64,000 nt of DNA. It comes from Owenia fusiformis. Lineage: Eukaryota; Annelida; Polychaeta; Sabellida; Oweniidae. Position numbers and translations under genes: made by a program. Of this stretch, positions 8,221 to 57,931 are shown in pieces; the stretch's first letter is position 1; the number at the start of each line of letters is the position of its first letter. The notes under the pieces are model-generated. The model worked only from the letters and a program-made list of their open reading frames with translations, made no database searches and was not told where the DNA came from. The stretch spans positions 9,108,030-9,172,029 of the forward strand of contig CAIIXF020000009.1 in the NCBI GenBank assembly GCA_903813345.2, in the 5' to 3' direction.

Positions 8221-9585
8221 ATGAGTGCATGCAGATGTGGATGATAAAAAATTAACTCGATACATACTTCCTGTCGGCCATTTTGAAGTCAAATGCTAAA
8301 ATCCTTGTCTGCAAACTTTAAGAAAATCGGCTTCACAGTTGCTTTTAAAACTTTAACATCTTGTTCAGCTCACTTCATTCTAGATCTGATTAGGTTTTGG
8401 ACCTGTTAGCTCAGTCATGTCAGCCATTTTGAATGTTTTAAGAAAAGTTAGCGCACGATAATACTTTGTATCATATTAAATGGTGTTTTTCAGTTTTCAT
8501 ACTTTAACTATTTAGTAGCTTTATAAATAATTTCAGGTGTACCCTATGTTAAATATAGTGTTGAGATGAATGTTATGTATAGGATATTGCAGAAATATAG
8601 TCATTGTATGGGCTAATTCGTTCGAATTGGCAATATGTACCCCAGAAGGTGTGAGTATCGTAATCCAACACCAAATTTGAAAATTCAGAACAATACTTTG
8701 CACATATGGCGTTTGTGATCAACTATAAAACGCTTACCTCCCCCCCCCCCATAGTGTTATATATCAAAATGTACCTGTTCATATAGGGGTTCGATTGATC
8801 TACATCAAATTATAGGGAGGCAGGTTACTTTTTGAGATATCAGCGTCCATTTATTGTAACTCGCGTTTGCTACCATTTCCTCATTTCTGAGATGACGGGC
8901 AAACGCGTAGTAAACATGCTCACGCCGGAACTATTTTGACCTACATCGCTATTTTCGTAATTCAAATGAAAGTTGAACTCCTCCTCTTTATTTTGATACC
9001 AAATAGTGCCATACTGGGCACCCTAGAAGCCAACTATGGCGTTATTTAGAACAAAACCACAAATTTGTAAATGGACTTTATAGTGTCATACCTTTTAGCG
9101 GATGGATATGGAACCTCACACCAAAACTTGAATTTTGTGATTTTTTCAATATTTTTCAATGATTTACCGTAGTGACACCATAACGTATCATAACTTCTGG
9201 AATGACATGCCTTTCGGAAAATCTTTGGGAATATTTTCACTTCATTTACATTTCTTGTATAACTGTACTTATTGTTGATCAGACGGAAAGATAAGCTGAT
9301 GTAGTTACACTAGAGTTCGTGTACTACCATTTGGAAGGCACGTGAGGGTCCCATTCATCAGGTAACACTCATATGTCGAAGTTATGTTCTTATTATTTTT
9401 AACAGTTAACAGACTTTAGTAGTTCGGCATTGTATCAGTTTACTTGATCATACTAAACATTCGAATATTTACATGATAAGTATTTATTTTAACAGTTCTA
9501 AGCATTGAATATTTACTTGGTATTAAGCATATATTATTTACTTCATCGTGAGAAATGTTCTTGGAGTAATTGAATGAGTTACTGT

Positions 9586-11628
9586 CTACTTAGTGAGGGA
9601 GGTCAAGTACATGTTCAAGGCAAGGTCATCTCCTGCTTCATTTGTATTGAACCATCCGTTGCAGCGTGGACAATTGACCCTCAAGAGTTTTCCTTTATAG
9701 TCAACAACCTTTGACTCAACAGAGCACACAGGGCATTTGTACATTGCCGTTTGTAGACCTTGCAGTGATGACACTAACTGTGACGCTATGCTAGGGCCCT
9801 GCCGCTCGTATGCATCAATCTCACTTTGCTTTAAGTCGTTCAGGGTCCAGTATACATCAATAAAGTCAAGTCCAAGGATGTCAGCATTACGCACTCTGAA
9901 GAAGCCCCCATCAGCCCAATCACTGCCCCAGGAGTTCATCAGTCGCAAACATTCACTGTTGTAGCTGGTGAGAACGACTGCATGCCCACCTACTTCAGCC
10001 CCATATGGACGTTGTGTGATATCAAGATCAGATTTTGTCAGGATGCCATCTGGGTGTTCCTTATAGAATTCTGAGAATAAGTCCCATTCAGGGTCTGTGA
10101 GCCTGAACCTGACAATCACTTGGCGCTTTGCAGTGACAGCCTTCAGAGCACCAATGAGATCCATCTTTTCGCAGTGAAGTCGATATCCTGGACACATCTC
10201 TTTTAACACACGCAATGTATTGGCACCATCCTCTCCATATTTCTCAATCATCTGTTTACGAAGATCAAAGAAGTTTGGATAGCCACCTTCACGCCCTATG
10301 ATTCGCTTCATGGCAAGGTGCAATACTGCTGCAGAGGCATTGGCGTAGCAGGTTCCTCCCTTTTGCCGTTTGGCCCCGAATCCTTGGTTGGCCTGGTTGA
10401 TGTAGAGGTCAAGGGAGACAGAAGCGAGGATATCAGACAATGAATCCTGGCAACACACAACATTTCTTGCTAGGTCACATACATCTGCGATGATATCAGG
10501 GTGGTTCACTTGAAAGAACAGACGTGTTTCATTATTCTCTATATCAATGTTCCATCCTTGCTTTACAAATATTGTACGTGGTATCATCTGTGTTGTGATC
10601 GTGGAACTCATTTTGAACATGAAGTGTGCAGGTTTGTCCCAGCATTCAGAAGCAGTACTGTAAAGACGACGTGGATCTTCAATTGCTTGGCTGGTGATAT
10701 AACAACATATTATCGTCACACCAGATTTGGATAGCTCTCGCAGAGGGGGATTATTCCCATCACCAGGCTGCCCATCAGAGAGAATAAAGAGCAGTTTATG
10801 GTGTTGCTGGAATTCAGGCTTGTTGAATAGAGATATAGATTTTTTCATTGTTTTAATCAGGGGAGTACCACCATATATAAATGGCTTTACAGTGTCCATC
10901 AGTTCATCAACACGTTGCTTAGTGAGTTCTTCCTCTTCACCTATGCACCCATGTAGTATTTCTGATGCATCGTGTACATTCATCACAGCAGCCGAGCTGA
11001 TTTCAACCAGAGTACAACTATGGGCAAGTCTTATTCCTTTATCCACTGCTTCCTGGACGGCATCCCTAGTTGCAAATTCCTGGGTGCCAGGGACAAATCC
11101 ACCCAAGAAGAAAAAACTTTCCTTGCCATAAGACTTAAATGAATGTTTAAATTCTTTGCATTCATCTGGCAAACATGTGTCCACAAATCTTTCTCTGAAG
11201 TCTGAACCATCTGTGAGTTTCCCTAATATGAAACTAGCTTCGTTATCTTTCACAACGCTCATCAACACATTCATCTTGGCCCATTTTCTTACTCTTGGTG
11301 CACCATTATTTTCAAGTATGGACAATATATCATCAAGTATTCTCTCTTTACTCTGACTTCTTAGCTGATGGTTAACAGAAGATGCTGATTGGGCTCTCTT
11401 TATGGTATTTAACAAGTCAAATGCCTGTGGTTCATAAGATGCCCCGAAACCTAGACCAAATACATGATTAGATGAAGAGACATCATGTTTTATCAGTCCA
11501 TCTATAACTTTGAAGATAGATCGAGCCCAGCTTCCACCTTCTTCATTAACTCGCCCACCAATACTCTGCTCCATGGAGCCTGACACATCTACTAAGATAC
11601 CTGTAAGGGTGGCCATTGCTAGATGAAT
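9586..11628 (-). CDS. VWA + papain-like (C1) peptidase + zinc-ribbon fusion protein
   Basis: A single uninterrupted exon encodes 676 residues from the ATG at 11616 to the stop at 9586. A TTCTTTCAG acceptor puts the exon edge at 11628, leaving a 12-nt leader, so upstream 5'UTR exons are expected. Three parts are visible. (1) A VWA domain at the extreme N-terminus has a complete-looking MIDAS: Asp10, Ser12, Ser14 of DVSGSM, Thr251 of GGTPL, Asp281 of LSDGQPGD. (2) A papain-fold region spans about 410-590, with candidate nucleophile Cys423 (KGGTCYANAS), His545 (GGHAVVL) and Asn561 (MNSWGSDW). A Gln (418) lies upstream, one residue closer than in papain. (3) A zinc ribbon has CPVC at 628-631 and CPRC at 649-652. 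No signal peptide or propeptide is seen, so it is probably cytosolic rather than a lysosomal cathepsin. Function and substrate are unknown to me. A proteolytic role in stress or defence is only a guess. Confidence 0.88.
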   Translation of the reverse strand: MHLAMATLTGILVDVSGSMEQSIGGRVNEEGGSWARSIFKVIDGLIKHDVSSSNHVFGLGFGASYEPQAFDLLNTIKRAQSASSVNHQLRSQSKERILDDILSILENNGAPRVRKWAKMNVLMSVVKDNEASFILGKLTDGSDFRERFVDTCLPDECKEFKHSFKSYGKESFFFLGGFVPGTQEFATRDAVQEAVDKGIRLAHSCTLVEISSAAVMNVHDASEILHGCIGEEEELTKQRVDELMDTVKPFIYGGTPLIKTMKKSISLFNKPEFQQHHKLLFILSDGQPGDGNNPPLRELSKSGVTIICCYITSQAIEDPRRLYSTASECWDKPAHFMFKMSSTITTQMIPRTIFVKQGWNIDIENNETRLFFQVNHPDIIADVCDLARNVVCCQDSLSDILASVSLDLYINQANQGFGAKRQKGGTCYANASAAVLHLAMKRIIGREGGYPNFFDLRKQMIEKYGEDGANTLRVLKEMCPGYRLHCEKMDLIGALKAVTAKRQVIVRFRLTDPEWDLFSEFYKEHPDGILTKSDLDITQRPYGAEVGGHAVVLTSYNSECLRLMNSWGSDWADGGFFRVRNADILGLDFIDVYWTLNDLKQSEIDAYERQGPSIASQLVSSLQGLQTAMYKCPVCSVESKVVDYKGKLLRVNCPRCNGWFNTNEAGDDLALNMYLTSLTK

Positions 11629-11889
11629 CTGAAAGAACAAATCATATTCAAATTATTTAAGATATTGCAGTTAAATCTGTTGAATCCGAATGCTACTGAG
11701 ATTTGCCAAAAGTGTTCAGATTAGCAGGTGTTCACTTTTCAATGCTCCTTAAAATATGAGTCAATGGCAAATAAATGAGAGATTGGGATAGGACATTCTT
11801 AATGTACCATTCGAAAGTTTGCTTTAGACCCCCTTGGATAGTAGTATGTATTGTATTTCGTCTCATGGAGTATGGAATCTACAAATGTA
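11629..11889. mobile_element. Fragment of the TACAGTAAAACCTGT MITE family in the VWA-gene leader intron
   Basis: The stretch at about 11675-11780 (TGTTGAATCCGAATGCTACT, then GTGTTCAGATTAGCAGGTGT) matches the interior of the intact element at 12782-13020 (AAGTGTTCAGATTAGACAGG). The termini are missing. The rest of this interval is non-coding. Confidence 0.5.
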
Positions 11890-18289: not shown

Positions 18290-20130
18290 AATTCAATTCA
18301 ATTCAATTCAATTTATTTCATATTTCTTATATAATATACACTATAAAAACAAGCCGCTAGACACCCTAGTGGGTATATGTTGCGGTCTAACAGAAATCAT
18401 TTAAATGACATCTAGACTACATATAAAAGAAAACACTTATATTATGTTACATGTAGGTATATAAAAATGGTATTAACAATTAATCTAAGGATGTACAATG
18501 TAAAAATGTTACAAAAATCAGGTATCAGTATAAAATCAACAGTATAGTATGATATTGGTATTATACATTATCGATAGATGAGTAGTTTTTTATATGAAGA
18601 TTTGAAAATATTTAGAGTGGAGCATTTTTTAATATCATGTGGTAGAGCATTCCAAAGATTAGGACCTAGATAGCGAAGGGAAAGTTTAGAGCATTTAGGG
18701 ATATGAAAATAATGCAATTGTCTTGTGTAATGATGATGAATATATATGTTGATATCAAACAAGTCTTGAAATAGATTTTTTGGAAGACTGGGGTGCTTAT
18801 TAAAGATTTTGTACATGAACTGACCAGTACAATATCTGTTGACATCAAAAATATTTAATATGTTAAGATCTTCAAATAAGGGAGAGGAGTGAGAAAGTCT
18901 ATCCTTATTTAAAGCTAGCCTTAAGAATTGTTTCTGCAGTTTATGTAGACGATCATAAAATGATTTAAATGTGTTACCCCAGATTATGTTGCAATAATTT
19001 AATTGAGAGTGTATCAATGAGTAGTAAATTGTTTTGAAACTGACTATTTGAAGTAGATGTTTAATGTGATAAAGAGAACCAATGACGCGAGAAATCTTTG
19101 TTTCAATAGATTTTATGTGCTCTTTAAATTTCAAGTTTTTATCAATAATAATTCCAAGAAAGTCAATTTTATCCCGGAAATTTATGTTCTCATTGCTTAT
19201 TTTGAGATTCAGATTTGTTTGATTTTTTTGGGGTCCAAATAGAATAGCATTGGTTTTGCCAATATTAAGTGAAAGTTTGTTTGCTTTTATCCAGTCATCT
19301 ATTGAATTCAAGTTTGCATTAGTTCATTTAAATCATAATCACTATCAAGAAGATTGGTGTCATCAGCAAACATAATAAATTTTAGATTAGGGTCAACAAA
19401 AGGCAGATCATTTATGTAAAGAATAAATAATAGTGGTCCAAGCACCGAGCCCTGCGGAACACCACAATTTAGAGATGATTGTTTAGATTCATAATTGTTA
19501 ATGGTGACATATTGTTTGCGGTCTTTTAAATAACTTTCAAACCAGGACTTAGCTATTCCTCTGATGCCATAATATTCAAGTTTTTGTATCAAAATGTCAT
19601 GATTAATAGTGTCAAAGGCCTTGGAAAAATCTAATGTTATGCCAATGCTCGTTTTCCCCAAATCAGTTGATTTTCGAATTTGTTCAATGAAATATAAAAT
19701 GGCCATGTAGGTCGAATTTCTGAAATCCAAATTGATAAGTAAAAATAATTTCAAAACGTTCTAAAAAACCAGTGAGTTTGGCGTGCATGAGCTTTTCTAA
19801 CAATTTAGAAAATACCGATAAAACTGAAATTGGTCTATAGTTCGAAGGATTTGTAGTGACTCCTTTTTTAAATACAGGTGTTACTTTGGCCAATTTGAGG
19901 GCGTCTGGGAAAATACCAGATTTAAAAGATAAGTTAAATATATACAAGAGCGGATCAATTAAAAACTGTCTTACAGACTTAATAAGTGATGGTAGAATCC
20001 CATCAGGTCCAGGCGAGGAAGATTTTAGAAGACATATTTCTAATTCAAGCTCAATTTTTGAGGTCTTTTTGAGATAAATAGATGATTGAACTTTTTGAGC
20101 TCTTGCTAGGTATTCATAAACAATCATTTT
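18290..20130 (-). mobile_element. 5'-truncated non-LTR retrotransposon (CR1/Jockey-type RT)
   Basis: Minus-strand reading gives, in order, SSSPGPDGI, NYRPISVLSVFSKLLEK, LDFSKAFDTINHDIL (motif A Asp), GVPQGSVLGPLLFILYIN (motif B) and FADDTNLL (motif C). A thumb/C-terminal region follows (NKLSLNIGKTNAILFG, FLGIIIDKNLKFKEHI) and ends at a stop at 18568. Three frames must be joined, so there are at least two frameshifts, near 19700-19750 and near 19310. The endonuclease and any ORF1 are missing, so it is a dead 5'-truncated copy. The 3' end at 18291-18325 carries a short (TTGAA)n-like tail, as CR1/L2-type elements often do. It split an older inverted-repeat element. Confidence 0.9.
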
Positions 20131-20520
20131 GCTGAATTAATAAAAAAAATTGAAAAAATCAAAACCATCGAATATCACTTTTGAAACCATCGAATATCAA
20201 TTTGAAACCATCGAATATTACCTTTCAAAAAGTGATATTCGATGGTTTCAAAAGTGATATTCGATGATTTGGGAATTGTTTGCTAAAATATATCTTCATC
20301 CACGTATCAATTATATCTTCACGTGATATTCGATCTATATCCTTGTAACCATGGGATAAATAAGGGTTATGTACTGGGAGTTTTGGATACGGGGTTTTTC
20401 CAGAGGGAGATATGCATATCTACCTGAGGGACCGTAGGGACAGAAAGTAGATGTGCATATCTCACAAGGGATGAACCCAATATCCAAACCGACCGTACAT
20501 AACTGCTTTATCCTATACCA
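20131..20520. repeat. Right half of the LINE-interrupted inverted repeat
   Basis: ACCATCGAATATCAC units repeat in tandem at 20165-20225, then reverse orientation at 20230-20275, so the block is itself a small palindrome. Its outer part matches 17398-17541 in reverse complement. Confidence 0.65.
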
Positions 20521-25916: not shown

Positions 25917-27218
25917 ATGGATGAGACTACAACACTTGAACATAACATTAGCAAAATGTATAACTGGCAAATTGAAGCAAATGCAAGTAGTTTTTATATC
26001 GGACTGATGTGTGTCTCTGGCATCATCTTCGTTTTCTTGATACTTACAAATGGCTTACTGATTACGGTAGTGTTTAAAAATAAGCACTTGCAGACCCCTC
26101 CAAATATCATAGTTCTGAACATAGCAATAGCTGACCTTCTTCAAGCTCTCTTTGGACTACCTATCCGGGAATTGATGAATTATGAATATGACATAGCAAG
26201 AGATATTGTGCTAGGAACAGTTGATAAAAAATACATCTGCTTTTTGAGAGTATTCTTTACACTGCTAGCGACAGGTGGTGCTTTGTTTCTTTTTGTAACA
26301 TTGGCCATAGAGCGGTTTGTTGCGATTGTGTTGCCATTTCGTTATGATCGTTGGATGTGTAAGAGAAATACAATCATACTGAGTCTAATGTCATGGGGCC
26401 TACTCATCTCCATCATTATCCCTGCATTCTTTGGTTGGAACAGATGGGACGTGAAAGATCAATGCTCTGTACTGAATACACTTCATAGAATCCATAACTC
26501 CGCAATCCTGAATCCTTTGATTTATGGTTCACTGGCCCTAACCGCGATCCTGTATGGTAAGATATTCTGGATTGCCAAAAAGAAGCAAACTCAGATTTTG
26601 GCTCAGATTCAAGCTGTTGACCATGCCAAAGCTGTAGCGTATAAACGTAGCTTCAAGATTCTAAAAACTGTTGTAATAATCCTTGGACTGTTCATACTAT
26701 CATGGATTCCATTACTGTTTGTGAGGATGGTTCTTACACGTACAAATCTTGATGCTAATGCCATTATTTTACTGACGAATATCACATTCAAAATCTTGCT
26801 GATAAAATCTATATTCAACCCGATGATATTTTGTGAGAAAGATCGACAGCTTCGAATGGCTGCATTGAAACTCTTAGGCCTACAACAGGAAAATGTAGAA
26901 ATGCTTTTCACTTCTAATGCCACCAGCTCAGAGAGGGATCCTCGACTTGCCCATGTGAACGAGGCCTTTACAGGAGCAGTAGACACAGGAAGAGAACATA
27001 GAGATACTGAGGCATCAACTAGTAAGATTGGAGACGTGGGAATTGGCAATGTTTTTAACAGTACTGATATGCCACAAGTTCCAGGTTATATAAGAGAGAA
27101 TTCAGGAGTCAGTACCGATACAAGTACAGTAGACTTTAAAATGAAAGATGTGACACATCCAAATAGTCTCCCTGTTAACACACAAGAAACTTTTGACATA
27201 AATCTAGCACACATATGA
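25917..27218 (+). CDS. Class A (rhodopsin-family) GPCR, intronless, ligand unknown
   Basis: Encodes 433 residues with seven predicted membrane segments, roughly 27-52, 62-86, 108-131, 152-172, 194-218, 248-272 and 285-306. Family landmarks: Asn45 (TM1), Asp73 in IADLLQ (TM2), Cys108 and Cys183 for the TM3-ECL2 disulfide, Trp160 (TM4), SWIP at 262-265 (TM6). Two signatures are altered: ERF (132-134) in place of DRY, and NPMIF (301-305) in place of NPxxY. N-glycosylation sequons are at Asn10 and Asn22 in the short outer tail. The C-tail of about 125 residues is Ser/Thr-rich. FGWN in ECL2 recalls adenosine-like receptors, but I would not assign a ligand. A candidate AATAAA lies at 27237-27242, 19 bp past the stop. 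The start is the first ATG in frame. Confidence 0.9.
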   Translation: MDETTTLEHNISKMYNWQIEANASSFYIGLMCVSGIIFVFLILTNGLLITVVFKNKHLQTPPNIIVLNIAIADLLQALFGLPIRELMNYEYDIARDIVLGTVDKKYICFLRVFFTLLATGGALFLFVTLAIERFVAIVLPFRYDRWMCKRNTIILSLMSWGLLISIIIPAFFGWNRWDVKDQCSVLNTLHRIHNSAILNPLIYGSLALTAILYGKIFWIAKKKQTQILAQIQAVDHAKAVAYKRSFKILKTVVIILGLFILSWIPLLFVRMVLTRTNLDANAIILLTNITFKILLIKSIFNPMIFCEKDRQLRMAALKLLGLQQENVEMLFTSNATSSERDPRLAHVNEAFTGAVDTGREHRDTEASTSKIGDVGIGNVFNSTDMPQVPGYIRENSGVSTDTSTVDFKMKDVTHPNSLPVNTQETFDINLAHI

Positions 27219-40100: not shown

Positions 40101-43100
40101 AATCCTACATCGGTTGAATGTTTTGACCTGGCACAATCAAATAGGTAAGATCTCGTTCATGTGAAATTGAAATTTATGTCATCACCAGAATTTGTGACAT
40201 ATTGTTATATTCTCTTAGCTTTTCATGGACAGTAATCGGCGGTTAGTGTTTGGTGTCTGTAGCAAATGGCAGGTTTTGATATTTTGCATGTTGACGATTT
40301 TTATTTTTGTATTGTAGTTCAAATGAAATATGTTGTTAAACAAAACTGTGCAACAGTCACTGAAAAGATAAAAACAATTTTTGATATTGCATACTGCATG
40401 AACCATGCTTTGTATATTATTTGAATTTATCATAGAAATTATATTTACTTTCTGTGTCATCTGTTTCATGTTGCAATTAGTTATACCCAGGATACCCTTG
40501 TATCTTAATCCTCATTAGTACAGTTCGTTTATACAGTAGTTACATTTGAAGTTTTTCTGATTTTAGTGAGCACAGCCGTCATTGGTTCTTTAAGGGGAAG
40601 ATGGTGGTTGAGGGAAAGGAGATGCCCGACTCTCTATTCAAGATGGTGATGGAAACACAGTGTCATAGCAACAGTAACAACATCATTAAGTTCCATGACA
40701 ACAGCAGGTATTGTTAACATGCCTCTTAAATATGCGATGTTCAGCTGTTTACTTGTTTTAAACGTTTGAAATAACTCCGAGATGTTAAGCATATCCCTTA
40801 GTTGATTGACTTTGCATTTTTTGTCTGATATTTCAGTTGTTTGGCATAAACTTTATTGTTTGGCATATTCTCTTATTGTTTGCCTGTATTATTTGTTGTT
40901 TCTAGCGCCATAGCAGGGTTTGAGACAAAGCTCTTATACCCCAGCAAGTGTGGAAAACCGAGCCCAATGAGACCTATAGATGGCATCACTAGGCATATAA
41001 TACTTACAGCTGAGACGCATAATTTTCCAACAGGTACATCTGAATATTTAGTACTATGTCATGTTAGTTTCAAAATCTTAAGTTGAGCTTAAAATTCTAC
41101 AACCTGCAGGCTAGGCCTTCATTTATAATACAGTATAACCTGTTAAGTGGAACACCTCCATAAGTGGAACACCTCCCAAATGAAACATTGTTTTGTATAT
41201 ATCAAAAATGTTCCATATACATATATGCAATATGTATTACTGTATTTCTTTCTTTCCTTTAGGGGTGGCACCATTCCCAGGGGCTACAACCGGCACAGGG
41301 GGGCGTATTCGTGACGTCCAGGCTACTGGTATAGGAGCACATGTGGTGGCTGGTACAGCTGGCTACTGCTTTGGTAACCTGCATATACCTGGTAGGTACT
41401 TTAAAGTTGAATGAGTGGGCTTAATTTTCTCATTACTCACTGTATATTGTCTGTTATATCTGTGCCTTAATAGAAATATGACTCATTATTTTATTCCCAC
41501 ACATATTTCATATTCGTAATTGAACAAGTAACTTGAGATATCATATGTTACAATGGTTGAAGAATATGGTAACATATTATTTGATTTTATAGGCTATGAA
41601 CTACCATGGGAAGACAAAACACTCTCATATCCAACAAACTTCGCCCCACCTCTAGAAATTGCCATAGAAGCCAGCAACGGGGCATCTGACTATGGGAACA
41701 AGTTTGGTGAACCAGTTCTAGCTGGTTTTTCCCGGTCATTTGGAATGCTAACTGGGAACAAGGAAAGACGGGAATGGATTAAGCCAATCATGTTCAGTGC
41801 AGGGATGGGTTCAATGGACCATATACACTCTAAAAAAGAGGAGGCAGAACCTGGTATATGATTTAAATTGATTTAACCCCCCATGCAAATGTTTATCCTA
41901 TTTGGAAATAAGATAAAAAACATGTTGATTAAACAATATTTTGAAGATTGCACTAGTATATATCAGAAATATTTGCAGAAATTCTAATGGAATTTACAAA
42001 ATCTTTAAAGCTATTATTGAATAATCAACTCACTCATTTTCACTTAAATACTCAACATACTAAGTAAAATCATAAGCAAAATGTATGGAAAAATTTCCCC
42101 CATACTGGTATTCTGTGTATTCTGAATACAACGCGTGGTCCTTTAGGCAATGGTCAAATACTTCAACATGAAAACTTCTGAATGAAATAAGGTAAATTGC
42201 TAATTACAAAATTCTGTATGTTAAAGGTATGGAGGTGGTTAAGATAGGGGGACCAGTCTACAGGATAGGAGTGGGGGGTGGGGCTGCCTCATCTATCGAA
42301 GTACAGGGGGACAATACATCAGAGCTCGATTTTGGTGCCGTTCAACGTGGCGACGCTGAAATGGAACAGAAATTAAATCGTGTCATTAGAGCCTGTATAG
42401 AGATGGGAAAAGAGAATCCTATATGCAGTATACATGATCAAGGGGCAGGTGGAAATGGTTAGCAACACTAAGTTCAAGTATTTATATCTCAAGCTCTATT
42501 ATTATAGATATGAGCATGCTGAAGTCTTACTTGTTTTTGATGAAATGTTTTAGCTTTAAGTGATAATTTCCTAACAGAGTGAGATAGGCTTAGATATTTT
42601 ATATGTTATCTCATGTTGTGCAAATAACATTTCAATTTGAACATAGTGTTTTCTTCATCTCTCTTTATATCATTTCATCTTCTTGAAAAATTCTCATTTT
42701 GTCCATATAAGGAATAAGGAATGAAACTGGTTCAGAATATTTACAGTTTCTTGGAGGCAATATTTTATAAAGTGTACATCTTCAAGTGAAATATTTCCTT
42801 TCTTTTCAGGCAATGTATTGAAGGAGATTGTGGAACCAGCTGGTGCATTGATACGTGCTAAAGATTTCACACTGGCTGATCCCACCATCAGTGTCCTAGA
42901 GCTATGGGGAGCCGAATATCAGGAGAGTGATGCAGCACTTATCAGACCTAAAGACGTTGAGACACTCAAGCTGATTGGTCAACGAGAGAAATGTCCGATT
43001 GACTTTGTAGGGACCGTTACTGGAGATGGGAAGGTAATGGAGATGAGAAAGCATGAAATTAGAATACATTTGAAAACACAATGACTCAGACCCCTATAAA

Positions 43101-46100
43101 CTTTACTTGTTATTGACAGCTTTGACCTTGTGATATTACATCACTTTTCACATAGGCCTACATCTTTTATTCGGTAAATCTCTGGCAACAAGCCATTAAT
43201 TGTATAAGCATTGAGTAAGATTCTAGTCCAAGATCTATGGTAAATTGTTATAGTACATTACGGTCTATCTGTATAATCCAAACTCCTCTCTAATCTGAAC
43301 ACCTTTCAATGTTTACTTAATTTGTCAGAGACAGTCATGTTGAAAAAACTGGAAATGTGAACACCTGTCAATCCAAAAACTTTTGACTAGCCCTGTTAGT
43401 ATTTGGGTAAGACAGAATTTACTATACAAAATTATAACGCTTACAGGTGAAACTTGAAAACCTTGATGACAGTGGTGCAATGAATGGACACACAAATGGA
43501 GATGGCCCACCTGAGAAAAGAATTAAGACACACATTGATTTCCCTGTCGATCTTGACTTAGAAAACGTCATGGGCTCAATGCCCAGGAAGGTAAGAATAT
43601 TTGATTTAATAGAGCCAAAGTAATCTCTAACCCTACTATCACACCAAACTAGTTCTCACTACGTTCTCGAAAACGGGCTTAAACTGTGTACGAACGGACT
43701 GGATGTACTTAGAACCGGTTGGGGTCTATTTACAAACTTCATAGAATCTACTCGAACGGGTAGGTCCTCTAGATTGACACCAAGCAAGTTGCCACTACGT
43801 TCTTCAAAACTGGTTCTAAACTGTGTGTGAATGGAATGAACATAGCTACAATGTTCTACAGTCTGTTTACAAACTTCATGGACTTTCCCGGACAGGGAAT
43901 GTGATTTAGAATTTTGAATCGATTCAAAATTCGATGGTGACCATGCGGTTCTGTAAGCAGGTCATGATGACCTTCTAGACTAATGGACGCATTATATGAC
44001 GTTTCACACCGACATGGTGCAACCTGAACGAAGTGCGAATGAGATGGACGTATTGAAGACTGTTTTTGAACGAAGTAGCTAATTATTTTAGACATATTTC
44101 CCGACCACAGCCAGATTGAGCCCGTTTTACGACGTTTTCGTAGGACTGGCAAGAATGGGTAAGAACTAGTTTGGTGTGATAGGGGGGATAGATCCATCAA
44201 ATATTTTTATTTGAACACTCAAATTGCTTTAACATAGCATCATTTTTTGTATCTTGGATTGTGAATTTTTCTTTCACTTGGGAAAGGATATTTTATAGCA
44301 AAGAATGTAAAACATTGATACAAAATTCCAGGTTGTAAATGTAGCTTATTCCATAAATCTATGAGAACGTATTTCAGTTGTTACTTTCTAATATTTATCA
44401 AGTGTCATGTTTGGAGAATACAAAAAGTGTTCAGTGCATATGATAGTTCATCTCAAGTACATATTGAATACATGTAAGTTTTCCTTATATTGTACTGTAC
44501 TTACTGCACTGTATACTGTACTTACATATTTCAGACATTCAACCTAAGTAGGACTAAACCTACATTGAAGTCGCTTAGTTTCCCAGATGATCTCACTGTG
44601 AAGACTGCCTTAGATAGAGTACTGCGTCTTCCCTCAGTTGCAAGCAAACGTTACCTCACAAACAAAGTTGATAGGTTAGTTCCTTTGATGGTTTAGTCTC
44701 AGACTCTGAGGCTAAAATACCTGAAATCTAAATCGGTTATAAAAATCTGCAATTTTCTCCATCAGTATGCTTTAATACAAACTTTCTTTTCAAACTAATA
44801 TTTAAACAAAAGGTTTGCATCATTATTTTAGGATAAGGTAGATTAAACTAAAGCAGGATTCTTGTTGTTATATAGTGTTACTGCATTGCATGACGTGTGT
44901 ATAACGGTAACTGGTCAACTCAACCCCAAGTCAACCCAAGTCAACTCAACCCTTAGTCAAGTCGACCCCAAATCAAGTCAACACTTAGTCAAGTCGACCC
45001 CAAGTCATCTCAACCCTTAGTCAACTCGACCCCAAGTCATCTCAACCCTTGGTCATCTCAACTCTTAGTCGCCTATTTTCCAATAAGGGACTGATTTCAA
45101 CGACTTGAGCAAATCTTCAAGGGATACCAAAGGGAGGACTAGAACACATCTTTATGGACTAAGTTTGTCAACAACGCATGTGCGTCCAAGGCTAATGGAA
45201 ACAATCATAAATGAAATGATCCTCTCAGCAATGAAGAATACTTCTGAATAAATGACTTCAAGAGTACTGTTCTGCTTCTAGTACAGGTAGTTTGAAGCAA
45301 CTATCTAAGCAAGATGAATATGTTTTGGCAGGAAATTTTCAAATTAACATCAGTCAAAATTTGCTGACCCGCAAACCACTTTTACTTTTTTTGTAATTAC
45401 AATAAAATAAATTGTAGATGTGATATGTATATGAAACATTGCTTGTCAATTCAGAATTATACAATGAACACCTGCTGAAAATTTCAACTCAAATGGTTGA
45501 GAAATCTTGATATGGCAGACCAATTCCCAGAACTTAATGATCACCCTGTATAAGGGACGTTATTATCACAATACTAATGACATTGCTCACTTTTTAAAGT
45601 TAGTTTCCAAGCGTTATACAAAAAATAATCGATATTGGATGGAGGGGGGGGGATAGGATGGAGGGGGGATTTATATGTCTTTATGATGGAACAAATTCAC
45701 AAGAACTCATGTATTAGAAAAAACTTAACTCAGTACCCAGTAAATCAAAAAGTCTATAATTAAAAACAGTATATTTTCTCAATGTAATAAACTTTTTGAA
45801 TTAGGGAAGAAATTCTTTGCATTAATCAAATAGGATTCAAATAGGAATGTTTACCTTTACCATGATTATCTATTATAGATTTATTCCTTTAATAATTCAT
45901 ATACTATCAAAATATTTAACGAAATACTATTAAAATATAATGATATATTATATGATAATGTATTTTAACCCTACTAAAAACAAGTGAAATCGTTGGGGTC
46001 GACTTGACTAAGGGTTGAGTTGACCAAGGGTTGAGATGACTTGGGGTCGAGTTGACTAAGGGTTGAGATGACTTGGGGTCGACTTGACTAAGGGTTGACT

Positions 46101-49100
46101 TGACTTGGGGTCGACTTGACTAAGGGTTGACTTGACTTGGGTTGAGTTGACTTGGGGTTGAGTTGACCAGGAAGCGAAAAAACAACATGAATATTTTTAC
46201 ATTGATAACGTAACACGACTTTACAAACTTATTATTTGACAGGTCAGTGACGGGTCTTGTGGCGCAGCAACAGTGTGTAGGTCCTTTCCACACTCCCTTG
46301 GCTGATGTAGCTGTAACTGCACTCTCACACTTTGACACTGTAAGTAAAACTATGTTAAACAAGGGGTCTTAGAACTTATCCTTGCTTTATACCTTAGTTT
46401 TGTATATTTTAACTGGATTTAAAATTGAGTTGGTATTTACATGTGAAAATGAAACACTAGGTTTCATTAGAATTTCTGATAACATGCTAAATGTTCTCAA
46501 AAACAAAAGGCGATTTTGGAAAAATTTGTTGTATTTGTGTTTGGTTTAAGATCATAGTCAAATATGTCAAGTGGTAAGAAGTTAAAAATCGACATAAATC
46601 TTAAATTTTTTCTTTCAGGTTGGATCAGCGACGTCTATAGGTGAACAACCAATCAAAGGCCTAATAGACCCTGGATGCGGGGCTAGGATGGCTGTCGGTG
46701 AAGCACTGACCAATCTTGTCTTTGCAAGAGTCACTGACTTGAAAGTAAGAAATGACATTTATAATCACACTTTTCCAAACTGCTTTATTGTTGTTGTCTT
46801 GTACTGATGAGGGGCATACATTTGTATGGGCGTGTGGGCAGGTGAGTGGGTGGGGACCACATACTGTATAAGTGGTATTTAATCCGAGCGGTTAATTTTC
46901 CGAATGGTCAAATTTCATCATTTTCCTAATGACAAGAAACCTCCTATTGGATAACATTATAAAGACAATATTTCCGACATTTAATTTTCCGAACCTGGCA
47001 AAAATGAGAAAATAGGCAAAATTACCACTTCTACAGTAAATCTTGTCCTTGTTTGAGGCAAACCTCTAACCTATTCAAATTGAGTGGAAGCATGAAGTAT
47101 AAACAGACAAAAGAAAGGTGATCAATATACACCTCAATAGTCCACTGAATGCCCTTAGTCCTATGGAGCAAGGAATGGAATGCTCATCATGCACTGTATA
47201 TTTGGTGCATTATTTGACCTCTTAAGCTGTGTGACGCTATGGAATTATGAATATTATTTTCTGTATTATCGTATTTCTATATATTAGGATGTAAAATGTA
47301 GCGGAAACTGGATGTGGCCAGCTAAGCTTCCTGGCGAGGGTGCAGCATTATTTGATGCATGTCAGGCTATGTGTGATGTCATGAAAGAATTAGGTATTGC
47401 GATAGATGGTGGGAAGGATTCACTTAGTATGGCTGCGAGAGTTGAGGGAGAAACGGTCAAAGCACCAGGTTTGTATACTTTGTAAATTGTATCACACAGA
47501 GCATGAATAAGAAGAATATGAGTAAAGATTACATTTTTCCTTGATTTAACAGTTAATGGCCCTAGGGCCATATAGATTAAAATAAAATGTTTGTTTTTTT
47601 TCAAAACAAAACTGAACTTTTCCAGGTGCCTTGGTCATCTCTGCGTACGTTGGTTGCCCTGACATCACAGCGACCTTGACCCCAGATCTCAAATCCGAAC
47701 AATCAGATCTGCTCTGGGTGAGCCTTGCCCCTGGGAAGAGCAGACTTGGGGGAAGTGCACTAGCTCAATGTTATAGTCAACTTGGTGACGAGTCTCCAGA
47801 TTTAGACAAGCCTGAATTACTTTCTGCTGCATTCAGTGTTACTCAAGGTCTTATTAAAGGTATGACAAAAATTCAATCCATATTTGGTAATGGTTTATTA
47901 TGTCACCATTAGAAGTGGTGGTCTGTGTTAGGCGGTAGGTATCTGTAACAAATGGCACGTGGTGCCATTTTGCATGTTAATGCCTCGTGTATTGCGTTGC
48001 TTGAAGTTATTAGGTTATAATGTTTTTTTGTTGTTTTTTTTATTTGAAATTCATACAATCCATTTCTGTATATATGATACAGTAACCAACCTTTATAACT
48101 TGTAGATATAAGATAACGACGCCATTGTATTTTTCAGACAAAATGTTACTATCAGGTCATGATATCAGTGATGGAGGTCTAGTAACATGTGTCCTTGAGA
48201 TGGCATTTGCTGGGAATTTTGGCATCAATTTAACCCTCTCACAGTCAGGTAATACAATCATTATCTTATCAGATGAAATCATTTATGCTTCTCATTTTTT
48301 CAATTATGAATAATTTTCACTATTCCAAATAGTTCATGAGTAATTTTAAGTATTCCAAAATGGTTAATAGTAATTTACAAAATTTCAAATAGTTTATTAG
48401 TAATTTTAAGTATTCCAAATAATTTGAGTAATTTTAAGTATTTCAAATAAATTTTCAGTATTCAAAATAATTTATGAGTAATTTTACGTATTCAAAATAA
48501 TTTATGAGTAATTTTCAGTATTCTTTACAGGTATGCTTTTCATTTCTCATAGGTCTCATTGAAAAACAGAAACCTTTGAGTAAGGAGAATATACCTAATG
48601 TAAAAAGATCGCCCCCTTTGAATGCTGTGTAGATCCTGGCAATATCATAAAAATTATTCTTGTTAATTGTATAGTAATTGTTCATCATACTTTTCTAGAT
48701 ATGATCAAAACTCTGTTTGCGGAGGAGTTGGGTTTAGTCCTTGAGGTTTCTCTAGATAACACAACTGCTGTATTGGAGAGATATCAGGGACGTAATGTGC
48801 CCTGTCACCATATTGGGACCACTGCAGGAGTAGGGCCTGAGGCACAGGTAAAAAAGTTCAAGATAATTAAGAAATAGGAATTGTATTGTACACCCCCAAA
48901 ATGCAATCTGATTTTCGACGCCGTTTCGGTGCAAAATTTTGGTGTCGAAAGGTTTTGTTGCCGGTACGGTGTCAAAACGATGCTGGAACAGCGCCAAATT
49001 TTTTTGATGCCGGAACGGCGTCGAATTATATTGGCTGTGTATCGAGATCCTGTACCCTCCATTGTATCTCTTATCTTTTTGGAAGCCTCTCAATTTTAAA

Positions 49101-52100
49101 TCTGTTAAATAAACCCTGCCATATTTCACTTGTGGCTTTTCTTTTTAATTATAAAATTGCAAAAAAATACCTGTATAAGTAATTCAAAATGAAAGAAAAA
49201 TCATAACCAAGAAGGTGTTTTATGTATATGTTATATAACCTATTTGTTACATTACATACAGTAATTTATAGTAGGCTTGACTGTGATCCAAATATCACTG
49301 AAGCACCCAAAAACCCTCCTAAAAGGAGCCAAGTGTTATTTTATGTGCACTGACACGCAGACAAACAAGAACACACCACCTCCTTTTGTAGGAGTTGTGG
49401 ACCACTGTCAAACACCCTGGATCACTCTATGGCGTACACAAGAGCAAAGTAGTCTGAAATTAGCAGACCATGCAATCACCACAAAACAGACATTTACCCA
49501 AATTTAATTATATAAATTGATTTTATTTTCTTAAGATCAAGATATCAGTAGGATCAAATGTTGTTCTGGATGAGAAGATGGTTGCCCTTAGAGATATATG
49601 GGAGGAGACTAGCTGTCAGTTAGAACATCTACAGTCCAATCCCCACACAGCTCAACAGGAAGAGGAGGGGCTTAAACAGAGAGTGGCACCTCCCTACTCA
49701 TTGACCTTTGACCCTGCTGTGAAAGTAATTCCAAGTGTTCAACCATCAGGTAACTTGGAAATCAGTTGTATTTAATTTTTATTTCCAGATCATAAATTTC
49801 AGGAAAAAAAAGCAAAATTGTATCTCTTATATTGAACATTTGTAACTCATTTGCAAACAAGAAATACTGAATTGATATTCCAAGATACTTCACTCAACCA
49901 CTGCTCAAAATATCCAACCCTTCATCACTAGGTAATATAACATACATTAAGGAACTGCAAGCATTTTTCTCAGCATCGTCAAGTGCTATAAAAATGATGT
50001 TCTTAGACATTGATTTTACAATTCCACTTTATGTTAAAATCGGCACCATTCACATATTTCCAACTCATTTTGTCAGGAACTTTTGTTTGCAATATTTCAC
50101 ATTTAAAACTTGACTGCTTAATGTATTTTATTTTCAGTGCGACCTAAGGTAGCTGTTGTCCGTGAAGAGGGTAGTAACGGAGACAGGGAGATGATTGCCG
50201 CATTACATATGGCTGGTTTTGAAGCCTGGGACATTAACATGCAAGACTTGTCCGAGGGTGCGATTACTTTGGAAACATTCCGTGGTGTCGTCTTTGTTGG
50301 GGGGTTCAGTTATGCTGATGTGTTTGGATCTGCTAAAGGTATGATTTAACGAGAATTATTTCTGGTTTTAACACAGTGCAACATATGGCAAATGGTTATA
50401 GTCCATTGATCGCAGTTACATGTAGATTCTTTTTTTATGAAATTGATCGCTCAGTGAACAATAAAAATGATGGTAGGACCGTATGATAGTTTTTCGAACC
50501 TTCTGTATATCGTATCGTGCTCCTCATTGGGAGAACACCACATTAATCTTGTCATCAAAATTCTTGGAAAACCACTCATCCATTCAACTTCAAATTTTTA
50601 CAAATGCAAGTGAAGCCTAGTGCTCAAGTCCGATTTGGTTTTGGACATCTTGGGTACATTATATGGCAGCCATTTTGCTCTTCAAGTGCAATATTTATCA
50701 ATGTGTGTCTTGCTCCTGGCGAGCATGTTCATAAAAATGCATGTTTCACCACCAAAAGTGGTTACATTCTGTAATGGTCTCCATTTTTTATGGTGGTTTG
50801 TGGTTGGCGTCCTGCAATTGGCACCTTAACAATTAAAGGTGCAATAATTAGTGCAGAGGGGTCATTCAACGATCATGGACCAGTGTCAAAATATATTTAA
50901 GTTTGGATAGTTCATCAAGACTAACATCTATTTTTATTATCTACAAAGATACCCCCTAGATAAACATTATTTTAGCTGATATTCCTCTTGAAACATGGTG
51001 GATCTTAAAAATATAAAAGTGGAAGTCCCCTTTTTCAAGCTTTGAACTGAATTTACACTTCTTAATGCTGAAATTGATAATTTATCCATACATTTTAAGA
51101 AAATAGGTATGTCAAAGAAGATGTTAAACCAAATGTTGCCTTGATAGCTCAGAAAAAATGAAAAAACCTTCCGATTTTCTCTACAGTCCTTATTGCCCCT
51201 TTAACTTAACAGACACTGTTTAGTAGACTGACTTCTATTTTTTCAAATCTGACATCAGATTTGAGATTTGACCTTTAATGACCTTCTCAAGGTCAAAAAG
51301 GTATTTTTCAACTTGCCTCAAATTGACAAATAGGTGGAGCCATTTTGTCATGTTAATGCCTTGTCTATTACTACTTGTGCCTGGACTATAATATGATGTA
51401 CTATTCCTTGCTTTATTCCCTTTATAGATTCCTCTCATAATCCTCTATTTATTCACTAGGTTGGGGAGCCACCCTGCTGTTCAACAAAAAAGTCCAAGCT
51501 CAATTTGCAGCTTTTTACGAGCGTAGTGACACATTCAGTCTAGGAGTTTGCAACGGATGCCAGCTGATGGCGCTACTTGGTTGGGTTGCCCCTGATGATT
51601 CATTGATTCAGAATAAAGAAAATCAAGGTAGGTTGGATGATGTTCATTTTATATGATAAGAATCTGGGTCATACTGGCTACATTTATTCTGGGGAAATTC
51701 CAAGAAGTATTAACAAAAGTAGAACAAATCATAGTTCAGATTTTTCAATATTTTCTCAACTTTCATCTTGAAGGGTAATAGAGACAAGCTGAGAACACGT
51801 TTTGAAAACACAATTTCACAATGCTGTTGCTCTCATTAATTTTCTTTTGAAACTCTTGATTTTATGAAACATTTTAGTTTTAAATTTTCTTGAGAATGCA
51901 TGTTAAAAAATTATTGTCTGTGTTGTGCTGTGTTGTGTTGATAGTCGGTGTTAATTGGTTATAGAAGGTGCTACCACTGGTCAGGGGGTTTTTGTGACGC
52001 ACAACAAATCAGAGAGGTTTGAATCTCGTTTTTCGACTGTTAATATTGGAGAAACTCCATCGATAATGTTGTCTGGGATGCAAGGATCAACACTTGGGAT

Positions 52101-52814
52101 CTGGGTGGCCCACGGGGAAGGTAGGTGACATGAAAAATGTTAATCAAATTTAAAAAATAAATCTTAGTAGAATAATGAATGAAGTATTTTGATATGAATG
52201 ACTTTGTCATCACAAATAAACATTAATACAGATGTTCTTTCTTTTCATGTTTATCATGCATTTGTATCAGCATTTATTGAATGACTCTTGCATATGGAAA
52301 TTAATTGAACTAATAAGCCTCCTCGTTTTATACACAAATGCTTTTGCTGCAGTATTTAGATGTCATCTCTTAAGGTTGATGAAATGTTTAATGAATGGTT
52401 TAAATGGAGTTACTGTATTCTTTACGATATTAGACCCACTGTGCTTTAAATTTTCCATATGAATTTATAAATATTAAAATGGTGGGTGATAATGGTGTTT
52501 GTTTTTCAGGGCAAATGGAATTCAGGAATGAGGAAATTCTCACACAGGTTAAGGAGAACAATCTTATTGCCCTAAAATATGTCGATGATGAGGGTAAACC
52601 CACAGAACAATATCCACTTAATCCAAATGGCTCAATAGATGGCATCGCTGGTCTCTGTTCAGGTAATGGCCGCCATCTTGCTATGATGCCTCATCCTGAG
52701 CGCTGTGTGTTACCATGGCAATGGCCATGGATGCCAAATGATTGGAAGAACATGAAAGTGTCACCATGGTTACGTATGTTTGAGAATGCATACAAATGGT
52801 GCATTGAGCACTGA
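37112..52814 (+). CDS. PFAS: Phosphoribosylformylglycinamidine synthase (FGAR amidotransferase), 24 coding exons
   Basis: Cytosolic enzyme of de novo purine synthesis: FGAR + glutamine + ATP to FGAM. Exons: 37112-37259, 37819-37951, 38724-38835, 39169-39355, 40036-40144, 40567-40707, 40906-41033, 41263-41391, 41593-41853, 42227-42457, 42810-43033, 43447-43590, 44535-44674, 46243-46339, 46619-46744, 47288-47468, 47626-47859, 48138-48248, 48699-48847, 49536-49749, 50138-50338, 51460-51627, 51965-52120, 52510-52814. All junctions are GT/AG and keep frame, giving 4029 nt and 1342 aa, close to the vertebrate length. Landmarks: QSNSEHSRH (227-235), [10 protein letters not shown] (311-320), [12 protein letters not shown] (326-337), HDQGAGGNG (519-527), SGHDISDGG (914-922). 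The class I glutaminase domain starts near 1067, with nucleophile Cys1164 (GVCNGC), His1303 and Glu1305 (PHPER). No stop or missing residue is seen; it looks functional. Several introns carry transposons. Confidence 0.96.
38171..38356 (-). CDS. Small antisense ORF in PFAS intron 2, His/Asp-rich tail
   Basis: An ATG at 38356, in good context (ACAAGATGG), opens a 61-codon frame: [20 protein letters not shown], then a polar middle, then a [17 protein letters not shown] tract. The N-terminus looks like a possible mitochondrial presequence (Arg, Ser, no acid until residue 25). The tail comes from a GTGGTCGTGATC-type microsatellite. I do not recognise the protein. It could be a retrocopy of a small gene, a nested gene or chance. 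Confidence 0.3.
   Translation of the reverse strand: MAAQKLISSSTSYALSSLRIWRKSDEQFSLNGDDKKRDDHDHHHDHDHDHDQYDDYIPSMV
41125..41200. repeat. Fragment of CAGTATAACCTGT (pogo-like) MITE in PFAS intron 7
   Basis: TACAGTATAACCTGTTAAGT followed by two GTGGAACACCTCC repeats resembles the left end of 12782-13020. The right end is not seen. Confidence 0.45.
43637..44181. mobile_element. MITE in PFAS intron 12 with TATCACACCAAACTAGTTCT ends
   Basis: TATCACACCAAACTAGTTCT at the left is mirrored by AGAACTAGTTTGGTGTGATA at the right, a perfect 20-bp terminal repeat. Further matches extend inward (AAAACGGGCT against AGCCCGTTTT). About 545 bp, no transposase. Internal short direct duplications (ACTACGTTCT). 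Superfamily unclear; no target duplication resolved. Confidence 0.8.
44913..46168. mobile_element. FB-like foldback element in PFAS intron 13
   Basis: The left terminus (44913-45075) is a tandem array of CAACCC(C/T)(A/T)AGTCAA(C/G)TC-type units. The right terminus (about 45993-46168) is the same array in reverse complement. The outermost 20 bases, GGTCAACTCAACCCCAAGTC, are identical on both sides. The 0.9-kb middle is AT-rich with no ORF. Array-built inverted termini match the architecture of Drosophila FB elements. The right end lies 74 bp before exon 14. Confidence 0.85.
48293..48530. repeat. AT-rich minisatellite in PFAS intron 18, unit about 30 bp
   Basis: Units of the type TTTATGAGTAATTTTAAGTA followed by TTCCAAATAG recur about eight times with variation in length. 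Within an intron, no coding effect visible. Confidence 0.7.
48905..49027. mobile_element. CpG-rich palindromic MITE in PFAS intron 19
   Basis: TTTTCGACGCCGTTTCGG at about 48911 is mirrored by CCGGAACGGCGTCGAATT ending near 49027. The stretch is much richer in CpG than its surroundings and is open in several frames. No coding support. Confidence 0.6.
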
Positions 52815-56910: not shown

Positions 56911-57382
56911 ATTCTGACAGTCTGAGCATGTTTTGTAATACTAGTATGATCATATATCATGATCATTTTGTTAGACCAATGAATCTTGTTATAGTGAACA
57001 TTGGAGGGTTAACTGTCCCAAATATGATCTCAAGCCTATGCTGAATGACTGAGTAACTAATATTTGTATTTGTTTGGGTTTACTATTTTGGCTCACCCTG
57101 TACCTTACACTAGATGCGGAAGGAAGCTTTCCAGGAAAATACTATTACTTTACTCATACTTTTTTTAACCAGAAAATTACATGAACGGTATAAGAAATTT
57201 TTCAAAAATGTTAATATATACATGAACCTTAATCTATCTTATAAATAAAGTGATTTATAATCATTATGTCTTGCAGTTAAAAATCACTAGTCAAAAGATA
57301 AAACGGTCCATATCCAAAATCTCCCATAACCTCATTACTAAAATAATCAAACTCACAAAACAAATATTTTGGTGACGCTCAC

Positions 57383-57931
57383 AGTTTCCAGTTGTAGTTG
57401 AATAATATTATGGAAGGGTGGACTGTCAGCCGGAAGACATTCACTCTGCTCGAGAATACCGAGATCGTTAAGGTCGCCTGTCAATTGACTCATACTGTTT
57501 TGACTGTTTACTCTGATCTTCGTCATATTTGCAGATATGATGCTCAATGGTGCCGTTTGCGCCATGGTTGTTTGTGCCATTTGTGGAGTCATAGTTGTCT
57601 GTGGCAGATCTGGAGCCATGGTCGTTTGCACCATTTGTGGTATCATAGTCGTTTGCGCTGGTGCTGGAGCTATGGTCGTTTGCGCCATTTGTGGTGCCAT
57701 AGTCGTTTGCGCTGGTGCTGGAGCTATGGTCGTTTGCGCCATTTGTGGTGCCATAGTCGTTTGCGCTGGTGCTGGAGCCATGGTCGTTTGCGCCATTTGT
57801 GGTGCCAAAGTCGTTTGCGCTGGTGCTGGAGCCATGGTCGTTTGCGCCATTTGTGGTGCCATAGTCGTTTGCGCTAGTGCTGGAGCTATGGACGATTGCG
57901 CCACTTGAATTTTAATGATAAACAAGCTTTG
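57383..57931 (-). CDS. Mucin-like Thr/Pro/Ala/Gln repeat exon
   Basis: Minus-strand exon bounded by acceptor ATTTATTTAG (AG at 57932-57933 rc) and donor GTGAGC, 549 nt, phase 0 in and out. It encodes alternating 9-residue units of the type TTMAPAPAQ and TTMAPQMAQ (about 13 units), followed by a non-repetitive tail with an NMT sequon and one Cys. Such Thr/Pro arrays are usually O-glycosylated spacers in secreted or surface proteins. The first in-frame codon after the acceptor is not ATG, so the N-terminus lies in another exon. The frame cannot join directly to the exon at 56115 (phases differ). The array is open in other frames too, so a minisatellite without a gene is possible. Confidence 0.45.

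Follow-up and report, generated by a model that had tools for sequence, protein, structure and literature searches.

Reading frame on the minus strand of an Owenia fusiformis contig joins a VWA domain, a papain-like region and a zinc-ribbon-like tail

Animal papain-like peptidases are mostly lysosomal or secreted and are kept inactive by a propeptide. A stretch of 64,000 nucleotides from the polychaete Owenia fusiformis (assembly GCA_903813345.2, contig CAIIXF020000009.1, positions 9,108,030 to 9,172,029; hereafter the window, to which all positions refer) raises the question of whether an animal gene can encode a non-secreted papain-like peptidase with a metal-dependent VWA domain on the same chain. 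A preliminary description of this DNA had proposed such a protein, with a VWA domain, a papain-like region and a C-terminal zinc ribbon encoded in a single exon, and had called the arrangement probably undescribed.

The coding sequence of the VWA–papain-like–ribbon protein (P0001, 9586..11616, 676 amino acids) is found on the minus strand (the preliminary description had not named the strand) and runs from an ATG at 11616 to a TAG at 9588–9586. A plus-strand frame starting from 9586 was ruled out, as it contains 27 stops. Reading by eye, we found a likely splice acceptor, ttgttctttcag, at 11640–11629 of the minus strand, with a polypyrimidine tract and its AG at 11629..11630. Position 11628 is the first base after this acceptor and the ATG lies 12 bases further on, so an intron is probably located upstream of the ATG. 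About 100 bases past the stop, a candidate polyadenylation signal, AATAAA, is present at 9483..9488 (minus strand). GC content by codon position in the 676-codon frame is 0.51, 0.39 and 0.41. No second copy of the gene was found within the 64-kb window, where tblastn returned a single further piece with an E-value of 6.0.

Could the frame be open by chance, or stem from a recent bacterial contaminant or transfer? Its coding part is a single exon and its GC content of 0.44 exceeds that of the surrounding 2-kb blocks, although such an excess is usual for coding DNA. Against an origin of this kind, the probability of 676 open codons arising by chance, calculated from base composition, is about 3e-19, and the frame is preceded by the likely acceptor and followed by AATAAA.

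For the part of the gene seen here, the single coding exon of the preliminary description holds, but no stop interrupts the frame from the acceptor to the ATG, and a further coding exon may lie upstream. A first exon beyond the intron that supplied a signal sequence would make the product a secreted or lysosomal enzyme of the cathepsin type. However, the ATG of the 676-codon frame has a purine at −3 and a G at +4 and is directly followed by the first VWA strand (both read by eye), and the whole-protein Pfam scan gave no Inhibitor_I29 match, in line with the earlier statement that a cathepsin propeptide is absent. CPxC ribbons, moreover, are commoner inside cells. We consider a secreted or lysosomal product distinctly improbable. 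Inspection of the N-terminus of the 676-residue frame showed no signal peptide.

The remainder of the window contains several other coding and repeat features. Pfam matched seven of ten window frames, including a sodium/calcium exchanger, and the genes recognized look like those of an animal. A rhodopsin-type GPCR of 433 amino acids occupies a single frame at 25917–27218 on the plus strand (7tm_1, E 4e-30), and a phosphoribosylformylglycinamidine synthase-like gene was recognized by Pfam in three pieces at 42725–52811, also on the plus strand (AIRS_C, 42725–43081; FGAR-AT PurM_N-like, 46598–46804; GATase_5, 52434–52811). On the minus strand, three neighboring frames at 18568–20136 probably represent a broken non-LTR retrotransposon, with an RVT_1 reverse transcriptase domain at 19311–19754 (E 8e-20). 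Two minus-strand frames consist of tandem repeats: in the one at 2108–2578, a unit of about ten residues (RDHKFIVS...) recurs, with a sub-threshold pentapeptide-repeat match only, and the one at 57353–57931 has a repeat rich in Ala, Pro, Gln and Thr (MAPAPAQTT...).

In the 676-residue translation, every residue that the preliminary description had named for the VWA, papain-like and ribbon parts was found at the position given for it. These residues, together with similarity at the level of domains, bear out the order VWA, papain-like domain, zinc ribbon. The MIDAS is complete, with D10, S12, S14, T251 and D281 present in order. Its DxSxS motif (D10/S12/S14) falls in the first part of the VWA domain (residues 1–58; 11443..11616, minus strand), and T251 and D281 fall in the second part (residues 232–335; 10612..10923, minus strand). 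An insert of about 170 residues (about 59–231; 10924..11442, minus strand; boundaries inferred) separates the first VWA strands from the MIDAS threonine and makes the distance from DxSxS to the threonine far longer than is usual. No Pfam match was confined to the insert.

Pfam VWA (PF00092) matched the whole protein with 21.5 bits (E 2.9e-4), below its cut-off of 23.8. Residues 1–358 alone scored 24.1 bits, just above the cut-off, and a query in which residues 1–60 were joined to 229–339 scored 25.4 bits. In every query form, the joined one included, this profile aligned only to the latter half of the domain (235–329 or 235–332), and part of the gain in score on shortening the query or omitting the insert reflects query length. 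VWA_2 spanned both halves of the joined query (E 0.0065) but, at 17.5 bits, stayed under its cut-off of 27; it is the only alignment that, along with the DxSxS motif, places the first half. The joined halves matched no PDB sequence. The simplest reading of this sequence pattern is one VWA domain that is interrupted by about 170 residues.

The papain-like (C1) domain covers residues of about 399–600 (9817..10422, minus strand), as indicated by profile, PDB, alignment and model matches. Cys423, His545 and Asn561 follow one another in the papain-type order that the preliminary description had claimed, with papain-like spacing. The candidate nucleophile Cys423 (codon at 10348..10350, minus strand) lies in QKGGTCYANA and aligned with the family cysteine; His545 (9982..9984, minus strand) lies in GGHAVV and Asn561 (9934..9936, minus strand) in NSWG, both being assigned by motif and alignment. 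GGHAV and NSWG at their own spacing occur once in the window and in none of 100 shuffles. With the whole protein, Peptidase_C1 (PF00112) matched residues 541–577 (E 0.01, 16.4 bits), and with residues 399–676 the score rose to 18.3 bits, still below the cut-off of 20.7. Cathepsin B matched residues 505–584 in a phmmer search against PDB sequences (E 2.6e-4), the PHROGs peptidase family phrog_16701 matched residues 534–576 (E 3.5e-6), and Pfam C42, also a papain-like viral peptidase, touched residues 418–466 below its cut-off (E 0.048). Searches of NCBIfam and PADLOC with the protein gave no matches.

We extended these comparisons with a set of 78 viral loci, found by searching DNA for GGHAV...NSWG spaced as in the window protein. 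Searched on its own with a profile of 63 of the 78 viral C1 frames, the protein scored 46.3 bits (E 1.6e-16; envelope 410–601). The reported alignment spans residues 533–582 only, and the viral frames had been selected by the same motif that carries the match. The Cys half alone scored 2.7 bits, with one of 200 shuffles scoring higher, and C423 was placed on the family cysteine. Cys423 and His545 are 122 residues apart, compared with 99–148 in 52 non-redundant C1 stretches that had been preselected for 95–150. In a 53-row alignment, C423, H545 and N561 occupy the catalytic columns. Selection of the rows by the GGHAV and NSWG motifs accounts, at least in part, for the invariance of those columns; one further glycine, at position 75 in the first row, is likewise invariant although it played no role in the selection. 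The oxyanion position, at −6 from Cys423, is taken by Arg417 and not by the usual Gln, which is found mostly at −6 in the viral C1 frames listed. Candidates for this role are Gln418 at −5 or, with a six-residue insert (MAFFT), Gln411.

The non-standard oxyanion residue, the weak Cys half and a C1 score under the curated cut-off would fit a papain fold that does not cleave, or that carries out another reaction such as acyl transfer or deamidation, the protein then serving as a scaffold with its VWA domain and ribbon. However, Cys, His and Asn as well as the GGHAV and NSWG blocks are intact, whereas drift would be expected to leave less. Loss or change of the cleaving function therefore seems unlikely to us.

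Of the predicted structures, an AlphaFold2 single-sequence model of the whole protein failed, with a mean pLDDT of 31. A second AlphaFold2 model, of residues 390–676, was built with 52 papain-family (C1) rows and reached a mean pLDDT of 68.8 and a pTM of 0.62. In ten-residue blocks, the pLDDT was mostly 67–90 across its peptidase core, where it dipped to 46, and 59–71 in the ribbon, and it was about 30 over the last 20 residues. Foldseek ranked papains best for this model. At E <= 1e-3 it returned 237 chains from the PDB, and the best 50 are papain-family by title, with target-normalized TM scores of 0.40–0.60. Among viral models, 32 were found at E <= 1e-3; the titles of 12 name C1, papain or cathepsin, and others are unnamed or otherwise titled. 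Structure prediction, which the preliminary description had proposed as a check, gave a papain-like model for residues 390–676, but the rows behind the model are themselves papain-family and bias the result, so that the model indicates compatibility and not independent proof. When the 53-row profile was compared with the PDB, many papains were matched, the best being xylellain; since C1 proteins make up 52 of the 53 rows, these matches say little about the window protein.

The zinc-ribbon-like tail (residues 626–655; 9652..9741, minus strand) contains C628/C631 and C649/C652, which form the two CPxC pairs that had been described. Zn_ribbon_TFIIB (PF13453) matched it with 15.4 bits (E 0.012) in the whole protein and with 20.0 bits (E 4.4e-4) in the last 80 residues, both below the cut-off of 22. 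Of the three Pfam profiles, VWA passes its cut-off with residues 1–358, Peptidase_C1 and the zinc ribbon stay below theirs in every query form tried, and all three stay below in the whole protein. Each domain therefore has support, though in no case is it overwhelming.

We then compared the protein with sequences from viruses, plasmids and prokaryotes. Viral contigs scanned with the whole protein, the C-terminal part and the VWA part yielded no confirmed relative, within a reach of close relatives. A motif query made of two joined peptidase stretches found one viral locus, a 371-residue C1-like frame (L005) on a GC-rich viral contig. With tblastn at E <= 1, 11 phage records were matched, ten of them through the peptidase region and the remaining one through the VWA part (residues 248–331, E 0.07), and all nine plasmid records fell within residues 478–651. 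In the genome-contig collection, the exact pattern GGHAVV[LF]...NSWG occurred at three loci; no VWA was found in the frames of these loci, and the three genomes that carry them matched in the peptidase region only. Searches of three prokaryotic phyla at E <= 0.001 gave matches in 15 of 297, 26 of 82 and 4 of 296 genomes (675 distinct), all in query residues 511–623 except for one at 602–660. This ribbon-only match, which has an internal TGA, lies in prokaryotic genome G373 (contig 564, 10391–10570, minus strand).

These searches also bear on a chance or bacterial origin of the frame. One whole-protein scan of the genome contigs, whose reach is close relatives only, found no relative, and the 675 genomes of the three phyla gave matches in the peptidase or ribbon region only. 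Together with the length of the frame and its flanking signals, this argues against contamination, recent transfer or a chance frame, any of which we regard as very improbable.

The preliminary description had also suggested looking for the same three-part order in animals, protists and bacteria. From 98 of 112 fetched loci, we obtained 98 frames with a C1 signature (the other 14 had no frame by the pattern), counting one open frame per locus, some of them cut by locus ends, and leaving aside any VWA encoded by a separate gene. None of the 98 contained the MIDAS motif D.SGS[MSTA], a match to the VWA part at E <= 1 or two CxxC pairs at the ribbon spacing. Searches with the VWA part gave nothing better than E 0.72 in 83 loci and 1.7 in 78 frames. 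By these features, the viral and prokaryotic relatives found are C1 peptidases of a generic kind. Similar uncharacterized proteins may be present in invertebrate genomes, a possibility that does not enter the interpretation here. In one open-access literature collection, we found no publication that describes this protein. The three-domain combination is real and looks little studied.

Our preferred interpretation, which we hold to be probable, is that the window protein is a single-chain, non-secreted C1-like cysteine peptidase, active and with a VWA domain that captures a partner or substrate. The whole chain would fold into three modules and would reside in the cytosol. Its N-terminal VWA domain with the large insert would bind a divalent metal at the MIDAS, and this metal would contact an acidic residue of the partner or substrate protein. 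Cleavage would be carried out by the papain-like domain, with Cys423, His545 and Asn561 as its catalytic residues; the zinc ribbon at the C-terminus may cap the structure or offer a second surface for contacts. Because no propeptide is recognized, control would most likely be exerted by ligand binding to the VWA domain or by the insert, and not by zymogen cleavage. If this is true, an enzyme with its own metal-dependent capture module, apparently without a propeptide, would represent a different control of intracellular proteolysis. Eukaryotic intracellular VWA proteins such as Dictyostelium Vwa1, whose MIDAS is conserved, and VWA5A are said to be implicated in protein–protein contacts (PMC10539598), and on this basis we favor a VWA-directed, probably active peptidase. 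A role in defense or quality control, which the preliminary description had offered as a guess, is speculative. A broader proposal is doubtful at present: that animals have a family of cytosolic peptidases whose papain-like domain is gated by an insert-bearing MIDAS VWA, that the window protein is its first described member, and that this build is a counterpart of prokaryotic vWA–peptidase conflict effectors.

The C1 papain family (MEROPS C1/PF00112), which includes cathepsins and bacterial and phage peptidases such as xylellain (PDB 3ois), has in common with the window protein the order Cys...His...Asn, the GGHAV and NSWG blocks and, within the bias of its C1 rows, the papain-like model. In contrast to that family, the window protein is without a recognized propeptide, has an unusual oxyanion position, scores below the Pfam cut-off and places its peptidase after a VWA domain and before a ribbon; at the nucleophile it has CYA, whereas papain has CWA. 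An inhibitory propeptide is typical of cathepsins and not of all C1 peptidases. Vwa1 and VWA5A are non-secreted VWA proteins, as is predicted for the window protein, but they carry a VIT domain, and the accessible part of the account does not mention a peptidase for them (PMC10539598). Of the MoxR-vWA ternary conflict systems of prokaryotes, about 9% are reported to have the effector position occupied by a peptidase that is fused to the vWA component (Kaur et al. 2020, PMC7159879). These systems resemble the window protein in combining a metal-site vWA and a C-terminal peptidase on one chain. They differ from it in being prokaryotic, in having peptidases that are mostly of the trypsin or caspase type, and in pairing the vWA with a MoxR ATPase (PMC7159879).
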